NCBI RefSeq assembly: GCF_029239295.1
Contig: NZ_JAQZBC010000003.1
Span: 62,001 to 126,000, forward strand
Length of the DNA: 64,000 nt
Reading direction: 5' to 3'
Source: Sphingomonas sp.
Lineage (GTDB): Bacteria > Pseudomonadota > Alphaproteobacteria > Sphingomonadales > Sphingomonadaceae
A program made the translations under genes and the position numbers. How positions within the stretch are numbered: position 1 is the stretch's first letter; every line of letters begins with the position of its first letter. Below are positions 14,971 through 17,688 of this stretch, in pieces. Under the pieces are notes generated by a model, which did no database searches, was not told where the DNA came from, and saw only the letters and a list, made by a program, of their open reading frames with translations.

Positions 14971-15333
14971 ATGTTTAAGAAGCTTTCGCTCGCTGGCGCC
15001 GCTCTCGCGATGAGCACGGTTGCCCTGATCCCCGCCGAGGCATCGGCCCAGCGCTGGGGTGGCGACCGCTATGAGCGCCAGTATCGCGGCTATGATAATT
15101 ACCGCGGTTACGACAACCGTCGCAACTATCGCGGGAATGACCGTCGCTATCGCAACCAGCGCTGCAACAACGGCACGACCGGCGCGATCGTCGGCGCGAT
15201 CGCCGGCGGCCTGCTCGGCCGCACGATCGACAGCCGCGGTGACCGCGCACTGGGCACCGTTCTCGGCGGCGTCGGCGGCGCAGTGGCCGGCAACGCGATC
15301 GAGAAGTCGAACAATCCGCGCTACTGCCGCTAA
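14971..15333 (+). CDS. Glycine-zipper 2TM domain protein
   Basis: Signal peptide; NNGTTGAIVGAIAGGLLGRTIDSRGDRALGTVLGGVGGAVAGNAIE. Confidence 0.88.
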   Translation: MFKKLSLAGAALAMSTVALIPAEASAQRWGGDRYERQYRGYDNYRGYDNRRNYRGNDRRYRNQRCNNGTTGAIVGAIAGGLLGRTIDSRGDRALGTVLGGVGGAVAGNAIEKSNNPRYCR

Positions 15334-15382
15334 CGAGATGGCCGCGTAGGCCTGCTTATCCCTCGCGTAGCGTATGAGGGCG

Positions 15383-15423
15383 CGGGCCCGCCTTCCCTTT
15401 CGGAGGCGGGCCCGTTGTTTTTG
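15383..15423 (+). terminator. Rho-independent terminator
   Basis: CGGGCCCGCCT-N10-AGGCGGGCCCG then TTGTTTTT. Confidence 0.85.
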
Positions 15424-15439
15424 CACGGGAGCCCGCGGC

Positions 15440-15468
15440 TTGTCCGCCGGCGCGCTCAACGCTATATT
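15440..15468 (+). promoter_or_regulatory. Predicted sigma70-type promoter for thrS leader
   Basis: TTGTCC-N17-TATATT; predicted start coincides with the leader ATG at 15475. Confidence 0.6.
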
Positions 15469-15474
15469 CCGGCC

Positions 15475-15543
15475 ATGCTGCACGATCGTGCCACGACCAC
15501 TACCACTACCCCGGGCATCCGGGGGCGGTCGGTCACGCGCTGA
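15475..15543 (+). CDS. Predicted Thr-rich leader peptide (MLHDRATTTTTTPGIRGRSVTR) upstream of thrS
   Basis: 22-codon ORF with six consecutive Thr codons, starting at the predicted TSS, followed by alternative hairpins. Confidence 0.65.
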   Translation: MLHDRATTTTTTPGIRGRSVTR

Positions 15544-15672
15544 TGCGCTGACGGCTTGCTCACCCGGAACGGGTGGGCCGGCGTCCTCCACTTCGTTCCT
15601 GCCATATCCCGGACGCTCTTTTCGTCGCGTTCGCGCTCGCCTAAGCGCATCGGCATTGCAGGAAAGCCACTC

Positions 15673-17688
15673 ATGACCATGCTCTCGATCACGCTTCCGG
15701 ACGGCTCGGTACGCGAGGTGCCGCCGGGATCGACGCCCGCGGACATTGCCGCCGCCATCGGCCCCGGCCTCGCCAAGGCGGCAATCGCCGCACGCGTCGA
15801 CGGTGAATTGCGCGACATCACCCGTCCGTTCGAACGCGACGCGAAGCTGGCACTGGTGACGAACCGCGACGAGGCGGACGCGCTGGAGCTTGCCCGGCAC
15901 GACTTCGCGCACATCCTGGCCGAGGCGGTGCAGGAGCTGTTTCCCGGCACGCAGATCACGTTCGGGCCGTCGACAGACGATGGCTTCTACTACGATTTCG
16001 CCGCGCCCGCGGATCGTGGGCCGTTCACGGAAGAGGACCTTCCGCTGATCGAGGAGCGGATGCGCAAGATCATCGCCGCCGACAAGCCGCTGCGCCGCGA
16101 GGTGTGGACGCGCGAGCAGCTGATCGAACGCTGGAAGCAGCAGGGCGAGACGTTCAAGGCCGAATGGGCCGCCGAGCTTCCCGATGACGAGGAGCTGACG
16201 GTCTATTGGTCGGGCGGCGACTGGCTGGACATGTGCCGCGGGCCGCACCTTGCCTCCACCGGCAAGCTGGATCCGCAGGCGTTCAAGCTGACGCGCGTGT
16301 CGGGCGCCTATTGGCGCGGCGACCAGAAGAACGCGATGCTGAGCCGCATCTACGGCACCGGCTGGCTGAACAAGAAGCAGCTCGATGCGCATCTCCACAT
16401 GCTGGAGGAAGCGGCGAAGCGCGATCATCGCAAGATCGGGCAGGAGATGGACCTGTTCCACCTCCAGTCCGAGGCGCATGGCAGCGTCTTCTGGCACCCC
16501 AAGGGCTATATGATCTGGCGGCAGCTGGAGGCGTATATGCGCCGCCGGCTGGACGCGGGCGGCTATGAGGAAGTGAAGACGCCGCAGGTGATGGACGCGC
16601 GCCAGTGGGAGCGCTCCGGCCACTGGGGCAAGTATCGCGAGAACATGTTCGTCATCCCCGACGAAGTGCCCAACATCGAGGATGAGGGCGCGCTCGTTTC
16701 GCCGGATGCCGACTGGATGGCGCTGAAGCCGATGAACTGCCCGGCGCACGTGCTGATCTTCCGCCAGGGGATCAAATCGTATCGCGACCTGCCGATCCGC
16801 ATGGCCGAGTTCGGCTGCTGCCACCGCAACGAGCCGCATGGCGCGCTGCACGGCATCATGCGCGTGCGCCAGTTCACGCAGGACGACGCGCATATCTTCG
16901 TGCGCGAGGACCAGCTGGTCGACGAGGTCGCGAAGTTCATCGACCTGCTCGACAGCGTGTACCACGATCTGGGCTTCACCGATTATGCGGTGAAGCTGGC
17001 GCTGCGCCCCGAGAAGCGCTTCGGCGAGGACGCGATGTGGGACAAGTCCGAGGACGAGCTGCGCCGCGCGGTGATGGCCTCGAACCTGCCGCAGAAGATC
17101 AAGGACGGGTTCGAGGAGCTGGAGGGCGAAGGCGCCTTCTATGCGCCGAAGCTGGAATTCCACCTGACCGACGCGATCGGGCGGACCTGGCAGGTCGGCA
17201 CGATCCAGTCGGACCGCGTGCTGCCCGAGCGGCTGGACGCGAGCTACATCGGCGAGGATGGCGAGCGCCATCGCCCGGTGATGCTGCACCGTGCGATCCT
17301 GGGGACGTTCGAGCGGTTCCTGGGCATCCTGATCGAACATCACGCGGGCCGCTTCCCGCTGTGGCTGTCACCGGTGCAGGCGGTCGTCGCGACGATCGTG
17401 TCCGAGGCTGACGACTATGCGCATGTGGTGCGTGATCGGCTGGCGGCGGCGGGGCTGCGCGTCGAGACGGATCTTCGCAACGAGAAGATCAACTACAAGG
17501 TGCGCGAGCACAGCCTGGCGAAGGTGCCGGCGCTGCTGGTGGTCGGCAAGCGCGAGGCGGAGGAAGGCACGGTCGCCGTTCGCCGGCTGGGCAGCCAGGG
17601 GCAGGAGATCGTCTCGCTGGACGACATCGTCGAACGGCTAGTCAAGGAAGCGACGCCACCCGATTTGGTGGGAACGCTCAAGTCCTGA
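15673..17688 (+). CDS. thrS: Threonyl-tRNA synthetase
   Basis: TGS domain [79 protein letters not shown]. Confidence 0.99.

Follow-up and report, generated by a model that had tools for sequence, protein, structure and literature searches.

A threonine-rich leader ORF precedes thrS

Why does a short ORF with six consecutive threonine codons lie ahead of the threonyl-tRNA synthetase gene in Sphingomonas? The window analyzed here is a stretch of 64,000 nucleotides from Sphingomonas sp. In this window thrS is on the + strand at 15673..17688; the translation of the ORF starting at 15673 reads as a full threonyl-tRNA synthetase, and full-length homologues were found in 185 of the 190 genomes of the class. 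The leader ORF (15475..15543, + strand) has 22 codons and a TGA, MLHDRATTTTTTPGIRGRSVTR, with its stop codon at 15541-15543. Six Thr codons in a row, ACG ACC ACT ACC ACT ACC, can be read from the sequence at 15493..15510 (+). Upstream is a sigma-70-like promoter, TTGTCC-N17-TATATT (15440..15468, +), with the -35 at 15440-15445 and the -10 at 15463-15468. It was the one promoter-like match in 15340-15700 (0.1 expected), and 6 nt separate its TATATT from the ATG at 15475. An earlier note on this DNA had described this six-Thr ORF and promoter upstream of thrS, and both are present where it placed them. The 129 nt between the end of the leader ORF and the thrS start are hairpin-forming. An ordinary strong intrinsic terminator with a 14-bp stem, TGTTTTTG, was also seen at 15382-15415, after the preceding ORF (14971-15333) and immediately ahead of the thrS promoter.

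We collected thrS upstream regions from genomes of the same genus, from 80 named sphingomonad genomes and from covariance-model matches in the order. Across Sphingomonadaceae the leader ORF has 116 distinct counterparts before thrS, one per genome, in the same setting of promoter and hairpins. Loss of the Thr run among relatives had been named in the earlier note as grounds for giving up its proposal; a run of 4-9 Thr codons is kept in nearly all of the 116 leaders. Most of the peptides are 22-24 aa long, and the run is followed by a PxxRGR-like stretch, which is encoded by strand 2 of the helices described below. The Thr codons in the leaders are ACC (434), ACT (170), ACG (156), and ACA (34). 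Since all four are used, what is conserved is the amino acid rather than a particular DNA repeat. Named carriers include Sphingomonas adhaesiva (leader peptide MTHTPLTTTTTPARPGAGARVTA), S. asaccharolytica, Novosphingobium pokkalii, Croceicoccus estronivorus, Erythrobacter ramosus, E. sanguineus, and Blastomonas natatoria. The 22-codon ORF has the look of a genuine small coding sequence under conservation, and annotation easily overlooks ORFs of this type. In a Sphingomonas subclade (L009, L014, L020, and L103) the leader appears to be decaying: the -10, the start codon and hairpin 1:2 are kept, the Thr run is reduced to RTST, and the distal helices are gone. In L106 the leader ORF is present and begins 122 nt before thrS, and strands 3-7 have apparently been deleted.

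The leader is probably translated without a ribosome binding site

Among the 116 sequences, the trinucleotide TAT is concentrated between -14 and -10 relative to the leader start, and elsewhere in -60 to -1 it never reaches four occurrences at any position. In 109 of 118 cases the -10 ends 6-8 nt ahead of the start codon, but these start codons were picked partly by that spacing; the TAT profile and the agreement with the -35 consensus test the point more fairly. At least four of six matches to TTGACA occur in the -35 area of 96 of the 116 sequences, while about 35 were expected from shuffles. Just five of the 116 have an SD-like motif ahead of the leader start. Because of the -10 spacing, the -35 match and the scarcity of SD-like motifs, we infer that transcription starts on or adjoining the leader start codon and that ribosomes load in a leaderless manner. 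The transcription start on ATG 15475 that had been suggested from the window is in line with this promoter spacing, from which the 5' end is predicted.

Five covarying helices with predicted mutual exclusion

Seven strands account for the pairing downstream of the promoter: strand 1 (15509-15514), strand 2 (15519-15528), strand 3 (15558-15567), strand 4 (15566-15578), strand 5 (15580-15586), strand 6 (15594-15599), and strand 7 (15611-15617). The helices were evaluated with a register-free swap test, which compares the duplex energy of a sequence's own two strands with that of strands exchanged between species. The sample was 75 sequences less than 80% identical (a first version used 29 sequences). 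Twelve control pairings stayed near zero, with z between -2.2 and +2.4.

All of the helices are on the + strand. Helix 1:2, CCCCGG-GCAT-CCGGGG (15509..15524), overlaps the last Thr codon and had a swap z of -4.9 and an MFE of -13.1 alone. Helix 2:3 (15519..15567), the antiterminator side, joins CCGGG at 15519-15523 with CCCGG at 15563-15567 (swap z -7.0). Its tip, GTCA(c)GCGC-TGAT-GCGCTGAC at 15532-15552, spans the stop codon (swap z -5.7). Helix 3:4, GCTCACCCG-GAA-CGGGTGGGC (15558..15578), had a swap z of -8.1 and an MFE of -14.9 alone. The strongest signal came from helix 4:6 (15566..15599; swap z -11.9), in which GGAACG at 15566-15571 pairs with CGTTCC at 15594-15599. Helix 5:7 (15580..15623 with the following CTTTTC) joins GGCGTCC at 15580-15586 with GGACGCT at 15611-15617 (swap z -5.9), and strand 6 sits in its loop.

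Pair counts, which also back helices 1:2 and 3:4, pointed the same way, none of 500 shuffles scoring as high. For helix 2:3, 88.3% of cells were paired and again 0 of 500 shuffles were as high; the model alignment was fitted only to 1:2, 3:4, and 5:7, so 2:3 lies outside the model. In 7 of 7 pairs of helix 5:7 both partners have changed, in an alignment that was fitted to this helix. Because 4:6 takes two registers in the model alignment, its pair counts there are not decisive, and this helix was judged by the swap test. Together these comparisons support five helices, 1:2, 2:3, 3:4, 4:6, and 5:7, that are predicted to be mutually exclusive through overlap. The three hairpins previously proposed from the window all exist, as 1:2, the tip of 2:3, and 3:4, but the one over the stop codon is only the tip of a longer helix, and the distal helices 4:6 and 5:7 had been missed.

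Closer to thrS is hairpin 8:9, GCGCT/AGCGC (15633..15648, +), ahead of the thrS ribosome site, with a swap z of -5.1. It belongs to another conserved element, located about 25-60 nt ahead of thrS (15617-15650 in the window), which in the window and its relatives consists of CTTTTC/CTTCCGG, 15-17 nt, and then CATARG/CCTAAG/CCATGG within the covarying 8:9. This second distal element is retained in L040, which is without the leader; an internal promoter and a 5' UTR hairpin are candidates for what it is. We also considered an EcfG-type promoter, GGAAC-N-CGTT at 15566-15597, and rejected it, the spacer being 23 nt.

How the leader might control thrS

By strand overlap there are two compatible sets of helices, 1:2 + 3:4 + 5:7 or 2:3 + 4:6. 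The Thr codons (15493-15510) overlap strand 1 (15509-15514), and the stop codon (15541-15543) is in the loop of 2:3. In the mechanism that we propose, RNA polymerase would begin transcription at the ATG of the Thr leader, and a ribosome would load straight onto the 5' end so formed. When threonyl-tRNA is short, the ribosome would stall on the Thr codons and cover strand 1; strands 2 and 3 could then pair, strand 4 would be freed for strand 6, 5:7 would be blocked, and transcription would read through into thrS. When threonyl-tRNA is plentiful, the ribosome would reach the stop codon in the 2:3 loop and disrupt 2:3. Helix 3:4 would then pair, strand 6 would be free, 5:7 would form, and transcription would end at the CTTTTC tract. 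We thus consider it probable that this region is a ribosome-mediated transcription attenuator that adjusts thrS expression to the supply of threonyl-tRNA. Sequence comparison gives the ORF with its conserved Thr run, the spacing between promoter and ATG, and the five helices together with the overlaps that make them mutually exclusive; the transcription start, the stalling and the termination at 5:7 are what these features would imply. Ribosome-mediated attenuation of thrS by charged tRNA-Thr, as the earlier note had it, is the best-supported mechanism, its termination step being the conjectural part.

Partition-function folding was carried out with a ribosome placed either on the Thr codons (stall) or on the stop codon. 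From stop to stall, the expected pairs of 4:6 rose from 1.5 to 2.95 (Wilcoxon p=5e-4) and those of 5:7 fell from 4.4 to 3.1 (Wilcoxon p=0.003), effects that are averages: 5:7 shifts in the wrong direction in 28 of 115 sequences, and for the sequence of the window itself 3:4 prevails whichever site the ribosome occupies, with no clear switch. Complementing strand 2 abolishes the gain in 4:6 (p=4e-8). Strand 6 is inside the 5:7 loop and strand 4 outside, a geometry in which 4:6 and 5:7 might also form together as a pseudoknot.

The argument is least secure at the terminator. Helix 5:7 is followed by CTTTTC in the window and by CTCTTCC or CCCTTCC in many relatives, with a mean of 2.8 U in 9 nt (1.5 expected). 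The 5:7 fold of the window has an MFE of -10.7 and a shuffle z of only -1.0, and a few Sphingomonas sequences (L004, L007, and L010) have the CTTTTC ahead of the 3' arm of 5:7. In Sphingomonadaceae, 5:7 and its tract are therefore a candidate for a weak intrinsic terminator at best. A poor U-tract after the last hairpin had already been pointed out as a weakness of the attenuation model, and the tract after the newly found 5:7 is weak as well.

Thr leaders outside Sphingomonadaceae

Among the class genomes read outside the family, 4 of 67 have a short ORF rich in Thr codons between a promoter-like sequence and thrS. The alphaproteobacterial genus g144 has a leaderless Thr attenuator before thrS in 7 of 7 sampled genomes (L280-L286 and L289-L292). 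Its promoter is TTGACA, a spacer of 17 or 18 nt, and GATATT, with the start codon 6-7 nt downstream. The leader ORF is Thr-rich (e.g., MTARTTTTATTTRTSCGGP), and the predicted terminator before thrS, CCCTCCCGG...CCGGAGGG (or CTCGGAGGG), includes GGAGGG, is followed by TTTTTT, and folds with -17 to -20 kcal/mol. No sequence similarity was seen between the g144 leader and the sphingomonad leader. By its sequence the g144 thrS leader is a textbook attenuator and an independent case, and thus it supports the idea that thrS can be controlled by attenuation. Outside the family, three single genomes (L264, L238, and L217) have a short, Thr-rich ORF ahead of thrS that follows promoter-like sequence. 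The ORF L264, which belongs to genome G382, is absent from other sampled members of its genus and is not claimed as a leader.

Other explanations

The leader might sense threonyl-tRNA and yet act on thrS through Rho, RNA polymerase pausing, mRNA decay or thrS translation, not through termination at 5:7. The U-tract past 5:7, which is weak and in some species misplaced, speaks for such an output, and so does the extra covarying hairpin 8:9 immediately ahead of the thrS ribosome site. However, 5:7 covaries strongly (in all of the pairs counted) and is followed by a pyrimidine CTT in most sequences; it lies about 55 nt ahead of the thrS start and so leaves the ribosome site unmasked, and in g144, where the leader is arranged alike, the intrinsic terminator is clear. 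We regard a different output as unlikely, though it deserves to be taken seriously. Hairpin 8:9 also bears on the idea of an operator of the E. coli type, in which ThrRS would autoregulate thrS by binding a hairpin that resembles tRNA: 8:9 is conserved near the ribosome site and its loop contains TTGTG in many Erythrobacter-type sequences. In the window, however, this loop is CGCCTA, without a Thr anticodon, and an operator would leave the Thr codons, the leaderless ORF and the relay of strands 1-7 unexplained, so this form of control seems very improbable.

It seems similarly far-fetched that the leader mainly yields a trans-acting peptide or small RNA, of the peTrpL/rnTrpL type of Sinorhizobium meliloti, with control in cis being secondary. 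There is a precedent for a trans-acting leaderless leader peptide (PMC7298713), and the near-constant peptide length and the recurrent RGR motif would fit it. But RGR is encoded by strand 2, whose pairing accounts for its conservation, the downstream helices keep a switch in cis, and the leader remains beside thrS. As for a chance ORF next to unrelated hairpins, ACN runs do occur elsewhere in the genome (13 overlapping pattern matches in four places), but the comparison of 116 distinct conserved leaders, all before thrS and with covarying helices, refutes it, and we give it practically no weight. Attenuation by transcription termination remains the reading that we prefer.

Comparison with known regulatory systems

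An Rfam search of the region gave nothing beyond a chance mir-598 score, and the Thr_leader model was unmatched; nor did the region match the T-box model at E up to 1. In the literature searched, in which few subscription papers were covered, no account of a leader peptide at thrS was found. The his operon attenuator of E. coli and Salmonella has a codon run in its leader peptide and sets pairings A:B, C:D, and E:F against B:C and D:E. The sphingomonad leader resembles it as a relay, with 1:2, 3:4, and 5:7 against 2:3 and 4:6. It differs in its Thr codons, synthetase gene, leaderless start and weak U-tract, and in strand 6, the partner of strand 4, which is in the terminator loop and not in the terminator 5' arm. 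The E. coli thr operon leader thrL (Thr_leader in Rfam) shares the Thr-codon run, but it controls biosynthesis and not thrS. In E. coli, thrS itself is controlled by an operator at which ThrRS acts on its own mRNA, a protein-binding translational control via tRNA mimicry. This is control of the same gene in the 5' UTR, without a Thr codon run.

Leader peptides at synthetase genes have precedents. The pheST operon of E. coli has the pheM leader-peptide attenuator at an aminoacyl-tRNA synthetase gene. A small CDS lies upstream of trpS in Caulobacter crescentus (PMC4117421). Both are synthetase genes with a leader peptide, as here, for different amino acids. The parallel with rhizobial trpL that had been drawn from the window holds for the start of the RNA: in the alphaproteobacterial trpE(G) attenuator of S. 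meliloti, the RNA begins at the ATG of the trpL leader ORF, as mapped by experiment (PMC7298713), and the same start is predicted here. Unlike the thrS leader, S. meliloti trpL encodes a 14-aa peptide, has Trp codons and precedes a biosynthetic gene (PMC7298713).

The probable sphingomonad thrS attenuator thus falls within the known leader-peptide attenuators, with an unusual distal topology. More broadly, we lean, with some reserve, towards the view that Alphaproteobacteria have repeatedly built leaderless thrS attenuators, of which the Sphingomonadaceae form would be an undescribed family-wide five-helix relay whose second antiterminator pairs with the terminator loop (a possible pseudoknot) and which would replace ThrRS autoregulation. 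Attenuation would give thrS a translation-coupled sensor of tRNA charging, whereas the textbook cases are ThrRS autoregulation in E. coli and T-boxes in Firmicutes. The 116 natural sequences are also a resource on how a leaderless leader ORF is coupled to an RNA switch.

Distribution in sphingomonads

The model R1 had one strong match per genome in 53 of 151 genomes of the family, from 34 of 96 genera. The strong matches that were fetched lie directly before thrS, except for two short loci in which thrS was unreadable. Among the 190 class genomes, no strong R1 match was found outside Sphingomonadaceae. Scattered weak matches outside the family (E 1e-3 and above) were taken as chance, and one of them, in G382, is on another contig than its thrS and is not claimed. 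Within the family, Sphingobium, Sphingorhabdus and one Sphingomonas clade lack the leader, which counts against the proposed mechanism. Both deep clades of the ThrS tree contain it, and about 15 state changes are needed on that tree, an over-estimate since at least three rows scored as lacking it (L081, L082, and L087) were later positive with the model. An old origin followed by repeated loss is the simplest reading, the ThrS tree itself being unable to separate gain from loss. The absence from Sphingobium and others, together with the unrelated g144 version, provides material on how attenuators are lost and re-invented. Two loci have unusual spacing: in L087 a long near-perfect palindrome (1330-1494) is inserted between the attenuator and thrS, and in L081, from a Citromicrobium MAG (770-1494), the leader is separated from thrS by about 590 nt, which include other coding-looking sequence.
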